A DNA stretch of 64,000 nt, from positions 62,001 through 126,000 of the forward strand of contig JADLHZ010000151.1 in the NCBI GenBank assembly GCA_020848545.1. Reading direction: 5' to 3'. This document shows positions 22,587 to 31,492 of this stretch, piece by piece. The notes beneath the pieces were generated by a model. That model saw nothing but the letters and a program-made list of their open reading frames with translations, was not told the origin of the DNA and made no database searches. Position 1 is the first letter of the stretch. Each line of letters begins with the position of its first letter. The translations under genes were made by a program, and so were the position numbers. This stretch comes from Deltaproteobacteria bacterium (GTDB lineage: Bacteria > Myxococcota > JADLHZ01).

Positions 22587-24032
22587 ATGCTCATCGCGCT
22601 CTTCGTCCTCGCGGCCATGGATCCTGTCTACGCGGAGATCAAGAAGCAGCACGCCCAAAACATTGAGCGCCTGCAGCAATGGATCGCGCTGCCGAGCATC
22701 GCCGCCGAGAACCTCGCGAGCGAAGAAGGCGCCACGAAGATGATGGCGCTGTTGAAGGAGGCCGGGTTTCAACGCGTCGAGCGCGTGGCGACCGACGGCA
22801 AGCCCGGGGTGTTCGCGACGCTCGACGCCGGCGCCAAGAAGTCGCTCGGCCTCTACTTCATGTACGACGTAAAGCAGTACGACCCGAAGGAGTGGTCGTC
22901 GCCGCCGCTCGCCGCCGCGATCGTCGACAAGCCGGGCATGGGCAAGATCATGATCGGCCGCGGCACCGTGAACCAGAAGGGACCGCAAGCGGCGTTCCTC
23001 GCGGCGCTGCTGGCGTTCAAAGCGGCAGGCCAGAAGCTGCCGGTGAACCTCGTGCTCGTCGCCGAGGGCGAGGAAGAGATCGGCTCGCCGCACTTTCATC
23101 AAATCGTGAAGAAGCCCGAGGTGCAGCAGGCGCTGAGCAAGACGATCGGCGTGTTCATGCCGTCAGCGGCGCAGGCGCTCGACGGCGAGGTCGTCGTGTC
23201 GCTAGGGGCCAAGGGCGTCGTCGAGCTCGAGCTCGTCGCGAGCGGCGAGAAGTGGGGCCGCGGGCCGCAGAAAGACGTGCACTCTGGGCAGCGCGCGCGC
23301 ATCGACAGCCCGGCGTTTCACTTGGTGCAAGCGCTCGCGACGCTGGTGAACAAGGACGGCGATCCCGCGATCGACGGCTTCGCCGACGCCGCCCGCGCGC
23401 TCACGGCCGACGAGAACGCCATGATCGAGAGCGCCGCGAAGCGTTCGAGCGAAGCCGACGCGAAGAAGACCTTCAGCGTGACGAAGTGGGCGCACGACGT
23501 GTCGTGGAAGGAGTCGCTCGTGATGCTCGCGGCGCGCCCGACGGTGAACATCGAAGGCCTCGTAGGCGGCTACACCGGTCCCGGCGGCAAGACCGTGCTG
23601 CCGAACCGCGCCGTCGCCAAGATCGATCTGCGCCTCGTGCCGAACATGCGCTTCGACGCCGCCGTCCTTGCGCTGCGAGCCCACCTGAAAAAGCGAGGGT
23701 TCGGCGACATCGAGGTGAACGTGAGCGGCGGCTATGATCCCACCGAGACGAAGAAGGACGCGTGGCTCGTGCGCGCGCAACAGAAGACCTACGCGAGCTA
23801 CGGAATCGAAGCGCCGTTCTGGGTGCGCAACGCCGGATCGTATCCCGGCTTCGTCTTCACGAACCCGCCGTTGTCCTTGCCGGCCGGGCACTTCGGCCTG
23901 GGGCACGGCGGCGGGGCGCATGCGCCGGACGAGTACATATTAATAGAGAGCGCCACACCTAAGCTCAAAGGCTATGACGACGCGATCCGCTCCTTCGCCG
24001 ACTATTTAGTCACCCTTGCCGAGGGTTCCTGA
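22587..24032 (+). CDS. M20-family metallopeptidase-like protein with altered metal ligands
   Basis: A 481-aa protein of M20 peptidase/dipeptidase layout. The start LIALFVLAAMDPVYA could be a signal peptide, so export is possible. The family's HxDV motif reads FMYDVKQYD: the zinc-binding His is Met92 while the catalytic-support Asp94 is kept. The bridging-Asp motif GRGxxDxKG reads GRGTVNQKG, with Asn129. The EGEEEIGS glutamates (162-164 region) are intact and a C-terminal GHGGGAHAPDE region carries late histidines. It therefore lacks two standard metal ligands; it may bind one metal, or have become non-catalytic. 89 bases separate it from the acyltransferase-P450 gene on the same strand. An internal ATG (Met11) would remove the signal-like part. 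Confidence 0.82.
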   Translation: MLIALFVLAAMDPVYAEIKKQHAQNIERLQQWIALPSIAAENLASEEGATKMMALLKEAGFQRVERVATDGKPGVFATLDAGAKKSLGLYFMYDVKQYDPKEWSSPPLAAAIVDKPGMGKIMIGRGTVNQKGPQAAFLAALLAFKAAGQKLPVNLVLVAEGEEEIGSPHFHQIVKKPEVQQALSKTIGVFMPSAAQALDGEVVVSLGAKGVVELELVASGEKWGRGPQKDVHSGQRARIDSPAFHLVQALATLVNKDGDPAIDGFADAARALTADENAMIESAAKRSSEADAKKTFSVTKWAHDVSWKESLVMLAARPTVNIEGLVGGYTGPGGKTVLPNRAVAKIDLRLVPNMRFDAAVLALRAHLKKRGFGDIEVNVSGGYDPTETKKDAWLVRAQQKTYASYGIEAPFWVRNAGSYPGFVFTNPPLSLPAGHFGLGHGGGAHAPDEYILIESATPKLKGYDDAIRSFADYLVTLAEGS

Positions 24033-24121: not shown

Positions 24122-26914
24122 ATGAGGCTCGGTGCCCTGCCGGAGCGCATGACGGAGTTCATGGCGCTCCTCGACGATCCACGCGCCCCGCTCGTGATGC
24201 ACTTTCACGTGCGCTGGCAGGCGGATGCGCTTTTCTCGCTCGACGCCCTGCGCGCGGCGACGCGGCGGCTCTTCGAGAAGCACCCGCGCCTCACGGAGCG
24301 CTTCGCGCTCGACCGCGCCTGCTGGGAGCACGCCTCTGACCTCGACGCGCTCGTCGATCGCGTGTGGGAAGCGAATGGCGCATCGCTCGCGGAGTTTCGC
24401 GCATGCAAGATCGCCTTCGATCGCGCCCCGCTCTTTCGCCTGCGCGCAGACGGCGACGGTCTCTCGCTGGCGATGCACCACGTGCTCGCTGACGGAAAAT
24501 CCGGCGCGCACTTTCTCGGGCTCCTGCTCGCCGAGCTCACCAGCGAAGCGCTGCCGCAGCTGCGCGTGCGCGAGCGACCGGAAGCGAAGCTGACCTGGAA
24601 GCAGCTCTTCTTCGCGATCGTCGAGTGCTTCACGCGCGTCTTCGATCTCTTGTTTCGACCGCCGGTGATGCTCGGGCCCGTGACCTACGCAGGCGCCGGC
24701 GAGAGCTTCACCGCGCGCGTCGTTCCGAAGGGGGAGCTCGACGCGATGAACGCAGCGCTCAAGTCCGCGCACCCGGGCGCCACCTTGAACGAAGCGCTCT
24801 TGGCCGCGGTGCACCTGAGCGCGGCAGATCTTCTCGCCGAGCAGAAGGCGCGCGGCGTGGTGCACGGCGGCAGCGGGCGCATCTCGGTCATGATGCCGCT
24901 CGACTTGCGCCAAGCGTTGGGCCGCGCCGAGCCCTTTCACAACTTCTCGACGACCTTCTCGGTGACGAGCGCGCCGCGCCATCGCCGCCATGCGCACGCG
25001 TTGCTCCAGCACGTCCACGCGCAGGTCGATCGCGCGCGGCGCCGGCTCGCGGGGTTCGGACCCTTCTTGCTCTTCTCGCTCGCGCGCAGGCTCGGCGCCG
25101 TCGCCAAGGACCGCGCGCACCGTTCGCGACACGGCGCGCCGAAGCGGCTGACCGGCGGCGACCCGAAGTTTTGGCGCCAGCTCGACACCGTGATCTTCAC
25201 CTACCTCGGCAAGCTGCGTTTTCCGGCGGCGCTCGACCAGAAGGTGGACGGCATCGAGGGCTACGCGCCGGTGCTGCCGCCGTGCGGCGTGGCGATCGAC
25301 GCGGCGACGACGCAGCAAGGCCTGTGCTTCTGGCTGCACGCGAGCGACGCGACGCTGTCGCCAAAAGACGCCGAGCGCTTCTGCGATCTCGTGGTCGCCC
25401 ACACGCGAGCGATCTTGCAGCCGGCGGTCGCGGTGGCCGGGAGCCCTTCGCGCTTTGCCACGACGCGCGCGTTCTTTCGTGATCCCTTGGCGTTGCTCGG
25501 TCTTTGCCGCGACAAAGGTGACTTCGTGCGCTTGAACGTGCTTGGCCCGAAGCAATACGTCGCCAGCCACCCGGCGCTGATCGAAGAGATCTTGGTCGAC
25601 AAGGGCCGCGTGTTTCGCAAGGACCAGGCGCTGCGCATGCTCGCGCGCGTGCTCGGCGAGGGCTTGCTCACGAGCGACGGCACGTTTTGGGCGCAGCAAA
25701 GGAAGCTCTTGCTGCCGGCGTTCCACCCCTCGCGCATGGCCGGCTACGCGGCGCAGATGGTCGCCGCGAGCGATCGCTTGGCCAGCACCTGGAAGCCCTT
25801 CGAGCAGAAGGACGTTTACAAAGAGATGCTCGCGCTGACGATCGACATCGTCGGCCGCACGCTCTTTGGCGCCGAAGAGGCGGAGGACGCCGAGGAAGTC
25901 GGCGGCGCGCTCGACGCCGTGATCCAACGCTTGAGCGATCCGCTCTACGTGATGGCGCCGTGGGCGGTGCACCTCGGCCTGCCGAGCGGGCGCCGCTTCG
26001 TCCGCGCGCTGAAGACGCTCGACGCGCTCGTCGCTCGCCTCATCGCGCGCCGCCGCACGCGCCCGCTCGACGAAGGCGATCTCTTGGGCCTGATGATCGG
26101 CGCCGTCGATCGCGGCGCGATGACAAAGGAGGAGCTGCGCAACGAAGCGCTCATCCTCTACGTCACGGGTCACGAGACGACGGCGATCGCGCTCGCCTAT
26201 ACGCTGTGGCTCGTCGCCCAGAGCCCTGCGGTCGAGCGGCGCTTGCAAGGCGAGCTCAGCAGCGTCCTCAACGGGCGCTTGCCCACGCTCGACGACGTGC
26301 GCGCGCTGCCGTTCACCGAGTGCGTCGTCAAAGAAGCGCTGCGCCTGTATCCGCCGGCCTGGTCGCTCGCGCGGCAAGCGACCGAGACGACCAAGATCGG
26401 CCCGCACACGATCGAGAAAGGCGCCGCGATCTGGATGGGCCCGTGGGCCGTGCAACACGACGCGCGCTTCTTCCCGGATCCCGAGCGCTTCTCGCCGGAG
26501 CGCTGGCTCGATCCGAAGATGGAGCAGCTGCCGAAGTGCGCGTACTTCCCCTTCGGCTCGGGCCCGCGCGTGTGCATCGGCCAAGCGTTCGCGAAGAGCG
26601 AGCTCGTGCTGGTGCTCGCGACGATCGCCCAGCGCTTCAAGCTGCGCTTCGCCGAGCAGGCGCCGCCGAAGATGCGCCCGAGCTTCACGCTGCGGCCGAT
26701 CTCTTCGTTCGCCGCGACCGTTGTCCCGCGCGATCCCGAGGCGATGCCGGCACAGGAGCCCGTGCCGCTCCCGCAGGCCACGCGCATCATGGCGCCGTCG
26801 AAGTGCCCATTTCGCCGCATGCTCGGCATCGGACAAGTGTCGGAGAGCACCGATGAGAGCGACAAAACTCCCGTCCAGACGCTGCCGCCGGCGCCCTCGA
26901 TAACGGAAGCATGA
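24122..26914 (+). CDS. Condensation-like acyltransferase fused to cytochrome P450
   Basis: A 930-aa two-enzyme fusion in one uninterrupted frame. Residues ~1-440 resemble the condensation/PapA/wax-synthase acyltransferase superfamily: the active-site motif MHHVLADGKSG (HHxxxDG, H119-G125) is complete and SVMMPLDLR resembles the family's second conserved segment. Residues ~450-890 are a complete P450: C-helix WAQQRK, I-helix VTGHETTAIA, K-helix EALRLYPP, and heme loop FPFGSGPRVCIG with Cys at about 818. No TM anchor and no fused reductase, so electrons must come from elsewhere. I infer that an acyl group is transferred and the acyl or its acceptor hydroxylated. Its stop overlaps the next start (ATGA) of the GT-desaturase fusion, so the two are coupled. 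Confidence 0.88.
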   Translation: MRLGALPERMTEFMALLDDPRAPLVMHFHVRWQADALFSLDALRAATRRLFEKHPRLTERFALDRACWEHASDLDALVDRVWEANGASLAEFRACKIAFDRAPLFRLRADGDGLSLAMHHVLADGKSGAHFLGLLLAELTSEALPQLRVRERPEAKLTWKQLFFAIVECFTRVFDLLFRPPVMLGPVTYAGAGESFTARVVPKGELDAMNAALKSAHPGATLNEALLAAVHLSAADLLAEQKARGVVHGGSGRISVMMPLDLRQALGRAEPFHNFSTTFSVTSAPRHRRHAHALLQHVHAQVDRARRRLAGFGPFLLFSLARRLGAVAKDRAHRSRHGAPKRLTGGDPKFWRQLDTVIFTYLGKLRFPAALDQKVDGIEGYAPVLPPCGVAIDAATTQQGLCFWLHASDATLSPKDAERFCDLVVAHTRAILQPAVAVAGSPSRFATTRAFFRDPLALLGLCRDKGDFVRLNVLGPKQYVASHPALIEEILVDKGRVFRKDQALRMLARVLGEGLLTSDGTFWAQQRKLLLPAFHPSRMAGYAAQMVAASDRLASTWKPFEQKDVYKEMLALTIDIVGRTLFGAEEAEDAEEVGGALDAVIQRLSDPLYVMAPWAVHLGLPSGRRFVRALKTLDALVARLIARRRTRPLDEGDLLGLMIGAVDRGAMTKEELRNEALILYVTGHETTAIALAYTLWLVAQSPAVERRLQGELSSVLNGRLPTLDDVRALPFTECVVKEALRLYPPAWSLARQATETTKIGPHTIEKGAAIWMGPWAVQHDARFFPDPERFSPERWLDPKMEQLPKCAYFPFGSGPRVCIGQAFAKSELVLVLATIAQRFKLRFAEQAPPKMRPSFTLRPISSFAATVVPRDPEAMPAQEPVPLPQATRIMAPSKCPFRRMLGIGQVSESTDESDKTPVQTLPPAPSITEA

Positions 26915-29127
26915 TGACCACGGTGCTCATCACGCTCGCCGGCTTCGCGTTCGTCGCGCACGCCGGCATCTTCTTGCTCGGCATCGCGCTCGCGTGGCGG
27001 CAACACTCGAAGAAAGCGCCGCCGGCCCGCGCGCTGCCCGTGACGATCCTGAAGCCGCTCGCCGGCTTCGACGACGGCCTCGAGGACAACCTGCGCTCGT
27101 TCTTCGCGCTGCAGCACGCGGCGCCGTTCGAGCTCGTGTTCTCGATCGACGCCTCCGAGCGCACGGGTGACGCCGCGGCGCTCGCGCAGCGTCTGATCGC
27201 CGAGCATCCTGCGGTGAGCGCCCGCTTCGTCCTCTCAGCGCGCGACGCTGGCGACAACCCGAAGATCGCGAACTTACTCGCCGGCGCCGCCGTCGCGCGT
27301 CACGATTTCGTGCTCGTGAGCGACGCCAACGTGCGCGTCGCGCCGGACTATCTGACGCGGCTCACCTCGCACTACTCGGACGACGTCGGCGTCGTGTGCA
27401 GCTGCATCGTCGGCAAGGGCGCGGAGAGCTTCGGCGCGGCAGTCGACGGGCTCGGCCTCAACACCTTCTACACGCGTGGCATGTTCCTCTCGATGCTCGG
27501 CGGCGAACCGGCCGTGCCGGGCAAAGGGATGCTCTTCTCCACGCGCGCGGCCGAGCGCTTCGGCGGTCTGCGATCGCTCTTGCGTTACTTCGCCGAGGAC
27601 TACCTCTTCGGCAAGCGCATGCTGGGCCTCGGCCTGCGCATCGTCGCGACCGAAGAGGGCCTCGTGCAGCACATGGGGCGGTCGAGCGTGCTCGACTACA
27701 TGCGCCGGCAAATCCGCTGGAGCCAGATTCGCCGGCTCTACGGCGGCGCCGCGTACGCGTTCGAGCTGTTGACGATGAACGCGCTCGCTCCGGCGGTGCT
27801 CGGCGGCGTCGCGGCGGCGTGGCTCTTCGGCTTCTCGGCCGTCTCGTTCGCGGCGGCGTGGCTCGCGTTCGAGCTCCTCTGCGATCTCGCGCTTACGCTG
27901 AAGGTCGGCGGCGACGTGAGCGCCCGCTTCCCCCTCTATTGGCTCGCGCGCGAAGCCCTCGCGCTTCCGATCTGGATCGCCACCTACGCGTCACGGCACA
28001 TCGTCTGGCGTGGCAAGAGACTGCCCTTCGATCGCGAAGGCCGCGTCACCGAGCCGGTCGAGATGTTCACGAAGACGAAGAAGGGCGAGCCGCACTACGA
28101 GCGCCGCCGCTTCATCATGAAGAAGTATCCGCAGATCCGTTCGTTGATGGGCCACGACACGCGCACGGCGTGGGTGACCATCGCCGTCGTGATCCTGCAG
28201 CTCGCGCTCGCGTGGGGCTTCGCGCTGCTCGCCGCGCAAGGGAGCGTCTTCGCGCATCCGATCGCCATGGTCGTCTACGCCTACGCGTTCGGCGCGATCC
28301 TGACGCACTGGCTGAGCATGACCATCCACGAGACCTCGCACGATCTCGCCTTCAAATCGCACCGCGCGAACCAGGCGCTGGCGTTGCTCGCCAACATTCC
28401 GATGCTCGTGCCGATCGCGATGACCTTCCATCGCTATCACTTGGGCCACCACGCGCTGCTCGGCGTCGACAAAGAGGACACCGACCTGCCGACGCGGTGG
28501 GAAGCGCGCGTGATCCGCCGCTCGACCGTGCTGAAGTTTCTGTGGCTCTCGCTCTACTTCTTCGTCTACTCGCTGCGCGGGCTCACCTTCGCCAAGAAGC
28601 CGAACCGCGCCGAGTGGCTGAACATCGTGTTCAGCTTGACGATGACTGCTTTGATCGTGAAGACGCTCGGCTGGACGGCGTTCGCGTACCTCGCGTGGAG
28701 CATGTTCTTCGCGCACAGCCTGCACCCGGTCGCGGCGCACTTCATCCACGAGCACTACATCTTCTCGGCGCCGCAGGAGACGTACTCGTACTACGGCGTG
28801 TTGAACCGGGTGACCTTCAACGTCGGCTATCACGTGGAGCACCACGACTTCATGAACGTGCCGGGGTGGAAGCTGCCGGCGCTCCACGCGATGGCGGGCA
28901 CCGAGTACTCGCGCCTCGTGTCGCACAAGTCGTGGACGCTCGTCCTGCTCGAGTTCATCTTCTGCCCGCGGATCGGCGTCGACAGCCGCGTCGTGCGCAG
29001 CCGCGCGGCGTTTCAGCGCACGCGCACGCAGGCTCACAAGGAGAGCAACGAGCGCGAGCATCGCTGGAAGAAGCCGGCGCACGAGAATGACCTCGGCGAG
29101 ATCACCGGCGAGGTGCTCCTATGGTGA
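26911..29127 (+). CDS. Ceramide-glucosyltransferase-like GT fused to dihydroceramide delta-4-desaturase
   Basis: A 738-aa membrane protein. Residues ~1-385 are a GT-A glycosyltransferase of GT21/HpnI type: N-terminal TM, ILKPLAGFDDGLEDNL, DxD-like SDANVRV, EDYLFGK, and the (Q/R)xxRW motif in RRQIRWSQIRR. Residues ~395-738 match sphingolipid delta-4 desaturases (DEGS/DES1) nearly end to end: KKYPQIRSLMGHDTRTAW, box 1 HETSHD, box 2 HRYHLGHH, ETYSYYG, and box 3 FNVGYHVEHHDFMNVPGWKL. All three His boxes and both GT active-site regions are intact. I infer that one polypeptide both desaturates the sphingoid base and adds a sugar to the ceramide at the inner membrane. Overlaps both neighbours (4 and 7 bases). 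Confidence 0.92.
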   Translation: MMTTVLITLAGFAFVAHAGIFLLGIALAWRQHSKKAPPARALPVTILKPLAGFDDGLEDNLRSFFALQHAAPFELVFSIDASERTGDAAALAQRLIAEHPAVSARFVLSARDAGDNPKIANLLAGAAVARHDFVLVSDANVRVAPDYLTRLTSHYSDDVGVVCSCIVGKGAESFGAAVDGLGLNTFYTRGMFLSMLGGEPAVPGKGMLFSTRAAERFGGLRSLLRYFAEDYLFGKRMLGLGLRIVATEEGLVQHMGRSSVLDYMRRQIRWSQIRRLYGGAAYAFELLTMNALAPAVLGGVAAAWLFGFSAVSFAAAWLAFELLCDLALTLKVGGDVSARFPLYWLAREALALPIWIATYASRHIVWRGKRLPFDREGRVTEPVEMFTKTKKGEPHYERRRFIMKKYPQIRSLMGHDTRTAWVTIAVVILQLALAWGFALLAAQGSVFAHPIAMVVYAYAFGAILTHWLSMTIHETSHDLAFKSHRANQALALLANIPMLVPIAMTFHRYHLGHHALLGVDKEDTDLPTRWEARVIRRSTVLKFLWLSLYFFVYSLRGLTFAKKPNRAEWLNIVFSLTMTALIVKTLGWTAFAYLAWSMFFAHSLHPVAAHFIHEHYIFSAPQETYSYYGVLNRVTFNVGYHVEHHDFMNVPGWKLPALHAMAGTEYSRLVSHKSWTLVLLEFIFCPRIGVDSRVVRSRAAFQRTRTQAHKESNEREHRWKKPAHENDLGEITGEVLLW

Positions 29128-30508: not shown

Positions 30509-31492
30509 GTGAAGACGCTCACCTACTCCGGCGGCCACAATTGGAACTATCTCGGCAAGTACTACGGGATCGATCCGACGGTGCTCGCCGCGTACAACGG
30601 TCAGGCCTTTGCCGATCTCAACGCGCCCGTAGCGGCGAAGTTCGTGTTGCGCGTGCCGAACGCTGCCGAGCTCACCGCGTTCTACCCGCAATATCGCAAG
30701 ATCTTCATGACCGCCCACGAGAGCTTCGGCCTCGCTCTGCGCCCGCCGACGTTGACGAACGCGCCCCAGGTGCTGAAGACGCCGCTCCTGCAGGGCTCCG
30801 GCAACATGGTCATCGTCAACGCCGCCCGGATGCGCCGCTTCAGCCACACCGGCGACAATTACGGCGTGTTCGCGCGCCTGCGCACGCCAAATCCGAGGCA
30901 CGAAGGCCGCTTCCTCGGCCCGGACGTCAACGCGCTGAGCTTCACCGAGGGTTGGTGGAAGTGCAACGTGCTCGTCGGCGACGTGCTCTACGCCGCGGGC
31001 TACGATTGGCCGATGAGCGAGTTCAAGCGCTACCTGCAGCCGAACGGCCTGCTCCGCTACATGAGCGTACCGAACACTTACGCGAAGCCGGTGTGGGTGG
31101 CGCAGCGCTTCTCGGGCGGCGGCCGGCCGCAGCAGAACGTGCCCTACGTCCCACCGACGGCGCGCGATCTCAGCGATGTGCAGCCAGGCGACGTCATGTT
31201 GCTGCACGGCGGCGACGACGACACCGGACACGCGGCCATCGTCACGAGCACGGTGCGCGTCGACGAGAAGGGCCGCGTGCTCGTGCGCGTCGTCGATATC
31301 TACGGCGAGGATTGGTACGACGTCACCGAGCACAAGGTGAAGGCGATCGTGCGACCGACGAAGAAGCTTGGGTACATGCCGGCCGAGAGCGTGGGAGGGG
31401 ATCCGAACTCGACGAAGCTGCTCGAAGGCGACGAACAGATCGACGACACCCCGGTCGGCGAGCCCTTGTACGCCGCGTGGCTAGATCCGTAA
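30509..31492 (+). CDS. LysM-like protein with CHAP/NlpC-like C-terminal region
   Basis: A 327-aa protein starting at GTG 30509. The first ~50 residues look like a LysM module (NWNYLGKYYGIDPTVLAAYN then AAKFVLRVPN), suggesting peptidoglycan or chitin binding, although no signal peptide precedes it. The C-terminal half contains DLSDVQPGDVMLLHGGDDDT followed by GHAAIVTSTV, which resembles the D-x-x-PGD...GH(A/V)A pattern of CHAP or NlpC/P60 domains. The cysteine nucleophile is not obvious (one candidate in WWKCNVLVGDVLYAAGYDW), so catalysis is uncertain. It lies 77 bases after the P450 and overlaps the convergent MYXO-CTERM gene by 12 bases. Confidence 0.7.
   Translation: MKTLTYSGGHNWNYLGKYYGIDPTVLAAYNGQAFADLNAPVAAKFVLRVPNAAELTAFYPQYRKIFMTAHESFGLALRPPTLTNAPQVLKTPLLQGSGNMVIVNAARMRRFSHTGDNYGVFARLRTPNPRHEGRFLGPDVNALSFTEGWWKCNVLVGDVLYAAGYDWPMSEFKRYLQPNGLLRYMSVPNTYAKPVWVAQRFSGGGRPQQNVPYVPPTARDLSDVQPGDVMLLHGGDDDTGHAAIVTSTVRVDEKGRVLVRVVDIYGEDWYDVTEHKVKAIVRPTKKLGYMPAESVGGDPNSTKLLEGDEQIDDTPVGEPLYAAWLDP

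Follow-up and report, generated by a model that had tools for sequence, protein, structure and literature searches.

A gene of a myxobacterium that joins a GT21-type glycosyltransferase and a Lipid_DES-type desaturase in one open reading frame

The fusion gene and its neighbours

The window, i.e., the whole analyzed stretch of 64,000 nucleotides from one contig of a bacterium of the phylum Myxococcota, contains a gene that encodes a two-domain protein of 738 amino acids (Table 1). The frame is uninterrupted from ATG to TGA, and its first in-frame stop codon is at position 29125. Its length is far beyond chance, and the frame is real. From about 27600 to 28700, a region that includes the join of the two domains, the coding score of this frame was between 0.26 and 0.60 in each step of 40 codons, and the scores of the other two frames were negative at every step. 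The GC content at third codon positions was 0.85-1.00 in each block of 50 codons, and the coding signal was as strong as that of the neighbouring genes. A previous sequence-only reading of this DNA had claimed one uninterrupted frame of 738 codons and had named a missed stop codon at residues 385 to 395 as the point to be checked. The frame was borne out, the sequence has no in-frame stop codon at these residues or elsewhere before 29125, and the coding signal is uniform over the join. A split gene or a frameshift was rejected on the basis of this uniform signal in one frame.

At the junction, the glycosyltransferase (GT) half ends near ...KRLPFDREGRVTEP and the desaturase (DES) half starts near MFTKTKKGEPHYERRR. 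The end of the GT family is at about W375-R376 of the ceramide glucosyltransferase UGCG, which corresponds to residues 366-367 here, and Met385 follows about 17 residues further. In standalone DES relatives, the segment FxxxxxxEPHxxRRxxI lies only a few residues behind the start. Thus, two complete enzymes follow one another with hardly any linker between them. Inspection of the sequence directly upstream of Met385 (GCCGGTCGAG-ATG) revealed no clear ribosome-binding site. The fusion itself is regarded as solid, based at the junction on the frame and the coding signal in a single genome.

The fusion gene is part of a tight operon with two cytochrome P450 proteins, one of which is fused to an acyltransferase-like domain. 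The stop codon of the upstream gene, P0002, overlaps the start codon of the fusion gene (ATGA). The N-terminal domain of P0002 has a weak likeness to condensation/PapA5 proteins. P0002 is a second unusual fusion in this operon; the other matches listed from 193 Myxococcota genomes cover only its P450 part. No sphingolipid backbone gene adjoins the fusion gene in the inspected neighbourhood, which counts against ceramide as the substrate.

Table 1. Positions of the fusion gene, its parts and neighbours in the window, and of related features on other contigs
Feature	Position	Strand	Basis or remark
M20-family peptidase/deacylase	22587..24032	+	89 bp upstream of P0002; possible first gene of the operon
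P0002, 930 aa, HHVLADG acyltransferase/condensation-like N-terminal domain and cytochrome P450	24122..26914	+	
GT21-DES fusion gene, 738 aa	26911..29127	+	Open frame, Pfam domains, coding signal
GT21 half, residues 1-384	26911..28062	+	Pfam, PDB match, alignment, hydrophobicity
Junction	28045..28080	+	Almost no linker, no stop codon
DES half, residues 385-738	28063..29127	+	Pfam, His boxes, alignment
P0003, cytochrome P450	29121..30431	+	First 7 bp shared with the end of the fusion gene
327-aa protein, weak CHAP-like match	30509..31492	+	Operon membership unsure
Second, standalone DES with its flanking genes, same genome	L071:6554-9865		Contig C108
1827-aa PKS (KS, ACP, KR, DH) with C-terminal SPT-like domain, and its neighbouring genes, same genome	L069:8956-18998		Contig C65
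Kbl/BioF-like protein, same genome	L070:7084-8289		Contig C147
Oxidosqualene-cyclase-like protein, same genome	L092:1501-3459		Contig C41
Ferritin-like-DES fusions, three other genomes	L007:9365-10993; L008:9317-10945; L041:1504-3138		
TetR-like regulators beside standalone DES genes	L005:9102-9737; L006:7432-8055		39% identical

Family assignment of the two halves

The GT half consists of an N-terminal membrane segment (about residues 5-23), a catalytic domain and a hydrophobic C-terminal region (about residues 283-362). The Pfam model Glyco_transf_21 matched residues 100-271 (6.9e-37, 127 bits versus a gathering score of 21.7), and human ceramide glucosyltransferase in the PDB (26qf) matched residues 10-372 at 1.3e-36. 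The model TIGR03472 for HpnI matched residues 9-380 over nearly its whole length, with 195.5 bits versus a cut-off of 310. The catalytic positions of UGCG, which we take to be D92, D144, D236 and R272xxR275W276, were located by alignment. D144, D236, R272, R275 and W276 are kept as D138, D230 and R266QIRW270. The position of D92 is occupied by Gly, an Asp (D87) follows one residue later, and a 2-residue insertion is present at this site, which is unique to the fusion protein among the aligned proteins. In terms of the motif D1, D2, D3, (Q/R)xxRW, D2, D3 and RxxRW are thus present, and D1 is displaced by one residue.

A phylogeny of each half had been proposed together with the sequence-only reading. 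The GT half has a long branch of 1.36 and fell together with human UGCG and with two alphaproteobacterial proteins annotated as ceramide glucosyltransferases; the support of 91/91 is below the threshold, and the grouping with UGCG is weak and at most suggestive. The identity of the GT half to any relative found is at most about 36%. Its structure prediction was poor because its alignment contained no GT relatives. A fold search gave no interpretable match.

The DES half was matched by the N-terminal domain model Lipid_DES at residues 389-417 (1.5e-11, 44 bits versus 23) and by FA_desaturase at residues 452-662 (4.2e-20, 73 bits versus 29.7). It has three His boxes (H473ETSH477, H510LGHH514 and H641VEHH645), the His residues of which are invariant in eight of eight aligned proteins, and the blocks ETYSYYG and FNVGYHxEHHDF, as in the DEGS family. 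It is 38% identical over 311 residues to what we take to be the human DEGS1 reference sequence. Its nearest relatives are myxobacterial desaturases with about 50-54% identity, and in the phylogeny it was placed inside a myxobacterial DES clade with a support of 100/98, distinct from the DEGS1 branch. Its structure prediction was mostly good (pLDDT mostly 70-96). A search for viral and plasmid relatives of this half found none. These results place the DES half firmly in the Lipid_DES family. Its reaction could be hydroxylation instead of Delta4-desaturation because members of this family may also hydroxylate, as described for DEGS2 (PMC10140171).

All motifs that had been named before were found (SDANVRV, EDYLFGK, RQIRW, KKYPQIRSLMGHDTRTAW, HETSH, HLGHH, ETYSYYG and HVEHH), and the proposed Pfam domains are all present. 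The fusion and its assignment to GT21 and Lipid_DES were thus correct by Pfam matches, motifs and coding signal.

Related genes and possible lipid substrates

The search for relatives covered 195 Myxococcota genomes, none of which is closer to the source organism than the same phylum. Named relatives likewise place the source organism in this phylum. GT21 proteins were found in many of these genomes and DES proteins in at least about 36 others. Among the matches listed, the two halves were never found in one frame or side by side. A scan of contigs by exact peptide patterns, which reaches close relatives only, detected seven DES relatives, none of which has a GT half in its vicinity. A precursor pair of adjacent genes was considered and rejected, as GT21 and DES were seen neither adjacent nor fused elsewhere in the genomes searched. 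In three other myxobacterial genomes, a ferritin-like (AurF/DUF455-like) domain precedes a DES of this clade in one protein, and the myxobacterial DES clade thus seems prone to N-terminal fusion. No description of a GT21-DES fusion was found in the open-licence literature. Both enzyme families are known, and their union in a single chain was unique to the source genome in everything searched. The bacterial desaturase alone is not exceptional; its relatives are common in Myxococcota.

The surroundings of two other DES genes resemble those of the fusion gene. One DES relative (L004) is followed by a P450 gene, as is the fusion gene, and the standalone DES of the source genome has a PapA-like HHxxxDG acyltransferase gene on one side and a convergent P450 gene on the other. 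The recurrence of P450 and acyltransferase genes points to later hydroxylation and acylation of the DES product. Two other standalone DES genes (L005 and L006) are adjoined by related regulators that look TetR-like by their sequence, which suggests regulated DES expression.

The genome contains candidate genes for two kinds of lipid acceptor. The large PKS carries a C-terminal domain similar to serine palmitoyltransferase (SPT-like) with the lysine motif TLSKS, and this is the only alpha-oxoamine synthase with a PLP lysine that was found in the genome. The SPT-like domain reached 320.8 bits with NF047600 (cut-off 640) and 340.6 bits with BioF, and it passed no cut-off, including those of the NCBIfam SPT models. 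Closely related domains are present in long frames in many Myxococcota. The neighbouring genes encode an ACP, a fatty acyl-AMP ligase (FAAL), an HpnA-like reductase and a GNAT protein. A search for LAG1-type ceramide synthases was silent in the source genome, and also in the controls, and is thus uninformative. In Pseudomonas, sphingolipids are made via a two-gene PKS/AOS route (PMC12134224). By its domain content, the locus is likely a PKS route to sphingoid bases, and a sphingoid base is thus plausible in the source organism. The domain search detected neither AT nor ER in the PKS. A KR-DH module without ER would leave an enoyl chain, and condensation of this chain with serine would yield a Delta4 base. 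The PKS might therefore itself leave the Delta4 bond, which is the main chemical doubt about a scheme with Delta4-desaturation; the desaturase step may then be redundant, partly redundant or act elsewhere. The Kbl/BioF-like protein on another contig contains the PLP-lysine motif as TGTFGHALGG, in which His replaces Lys, and is probably not a normal PLP enzyme.

The best PDB match of the oxidosqualene-cyclase-like protein was lanosterol synthase (7.6e-176). The source bacterium thus probably makes sterols, and sterols would also be possible acceptors. A role in hopanoid synthesis was rejected, and a hopanoid acceptor is disfavoured: the GT half scored below the HpnI cut-off, no HpnH above cut-off was detected in the source genome, and the cyclase resembles lanosterol synthase, not a hopene cyclase.

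Proposed function and comparison with known systems

The explanation that we favour, with a probability of about one half, is one bifunctional inner-membrane enzyme that performs two coupled steps on a ceramide-type lipid. The DES domain, with a di-iron centre at its three His boxes, would introduce a Delta4 double bond or a C4 hydroxyl group into the long-chain base of dihydroceramide, and the GT21 domain would transfer a hexose from a UDP-sugar onto the headgroup of the same lipid. Judged by UGCG and DEGS1, both active sites presumably face the cytoplasm, and the fusion would thus allow the lipid to pass between the two. The P450s and the HHxxxDG acyltransferase domain, co-translated from the overlapping genes, would hydroxylate and acylate the glycolipid. 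We infer all of these details, i.e., the acceptor, the donor sugar, the order of the steps, the channelling and the roles of the neighbours. The more specific version, in which one enzyme combines Delta4-desaturation and ceramide glucosylation with physical channelling, in an operon for a new acylated and hydroxylated glycosphingolipid, is put forward tentatively, with odds below even.

In favour of the bifunctional enzyme are the single frame, the UGCG- and DEGS-type matches, the conserved residues, the placement in the DES clade, the SPT-like locus and the evidence against a hopanoid acceptor. The displaced D1, the preference of a bacterial GT21 enzyme for diacylglycerol (see below), the PKS without detected ER and the sub-cut-off SPT-like domain argue against it, as does the occurrence in only one of the genomes. 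To our knowledge, no characterized bacterial enzyme is close to either half, which also counts against it. Moss and Pichia pastoris no longer make glucosylceramide when their Delta4-desaturase is lost (PMC8318264); the two activities are thus functionally linked, and a fused enzyme makes biological sense. The sequence-only reading had called the protein a ceramide glucosyltransferase and dihydroceramide Delta4-desaturase. The families of this name stood, and the exact acceptor and reaction are plausible but unproven, in view of the HpnI score, the weak grouping with UGCG, the shifted D1, the preference for diacylglycerol and the hydroxylation by DEGS2. Overall, the results suggest cooperation of the two steps in the source bacterium, while the exact lipid is unproven.

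The strongest rival is a real fusion that acts on a different lipid, which we consider less likely than the favoured explanation. The sugar acceptor would then be diacylglycerol or a sterol, and another lipid chain would be the target for desaturation or hydroxylation by the DES-type half. The acceptor of the GT half may indeed differ from ceramide because the first conserved Asp is displaced and because a preference for diacylglycerol occurs among bacterial GT21 enzymes: the characterized Agrobacterium Pgt accepts diacylglycerol and ceramide and prefers the former (PMC3972451), and Pgt was assigned to GT21 (PMC8231724). The low identity of the GT half to its relatives, the lanosterol-synthase-like cyclase, and P450 and HHxxxDG neighbours that suggest a specialized lipid point in the same direction. 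The sphingolipid-type Lipid_DES N-domain and the SPT-like locus speak against it. For a sterol acceptor it is a further difficulty that, as far as we know, all sterol glucosyltransferases known so far belong to GT1 and none to GT21.

The remaining alternatives are less likely still. One half could be dead or drifted, e.g., a GT half that no longer binds the donor because of its altered D1 loop and instead anchors the desaturase in the membrane. The insertion found in no other aligned protein and the long GT branch would fit, but D2, D3 and RxxRW have been kept, the expected place of D1 has an Asp only one residue away and the coding signal equals that of the neighbours, which makes this improbable. 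Even less probable is the production of a free desaturase next to the fusion from an internal start at Met385; this residue is at the place where standalone DES relatives naturally begin, but it is not preceded by a Shine-Dalgarno-like sequence, although such sequences are weak at the other starts in the operon, too. An assembly or sequencing artefact that joined two genes is very improbable: the assembly has 163 contigs and no second, independent example of the fusion was found, but the halves share a frame without a drop in coding signal, the matches listed from relatives never contain the two genes side by side, the L004 relative is followed by a P450 gene as here, and the fusion gene overlaps both neighbours at its start and stop in operon style.

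Two membrane enzymes that are kept separate in animals and fungi are thus encoded as one myxobacterial protein. In plants and fungi, Delta4-desaturation and glucosylation are metabolically coupled and separately encoded, and in some of these organisms Delta4-desaturation decides whether ceramide is turned into glucosylceramide. If the bifunctional enzyme is confirmed, the natural fusion would argue strongly for a direct transfer of the lipid and could itself serve to test this, and bacterial sphingolipid chemistry would extend to unsaturated glycosylceramides like those of eukaryotes; the lineage apparently makes sterols as well.

Among known systems, UGCG/GCS (GT21) is homologous to the GT half over residues 10-372 and shares the equivalents of D144, D236 and R272xxR275W276, the N-terminal membrane segment and the hydrophobic C-terminal region. 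It differs by the low identity and the position of the D92 equivalent, and the C-terminus of the fusion protein runs on into the desaturase. HpnI, the bacteriohopanetetrol glucosamine glycosyltransferase, is GT21-like and its model is nearly fully covered, but the score is below the cut-off and HpnH above cut-off is lacking in the genome. Pgt of Agrobacterium/Mesorhizobium is, by its family placement, a bacterial GT21 enzyme that accepts ceramide and diacylglycerol (PMC3972451, PMC8231724); it is a standalone protein. DEGS1 and DEGS2 (Lipid_DES) share with the DES half the N-domain, the three His boxes and both sequence blocks, at 38% identity for the presumed human DEGS1, whereas the DES half is preceded by a complete glycosyltransferase and belongs to a bacterial clade apart from the DEGS1 branch. 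The ferritin-like-DES fusions have a DES of the same clade and, likewise, another domain joined at its natural N-terminus; in contrast to the protein described here, their partner is ferritin-like (AurF/DUF455-like) and not a glycosyltransferase.
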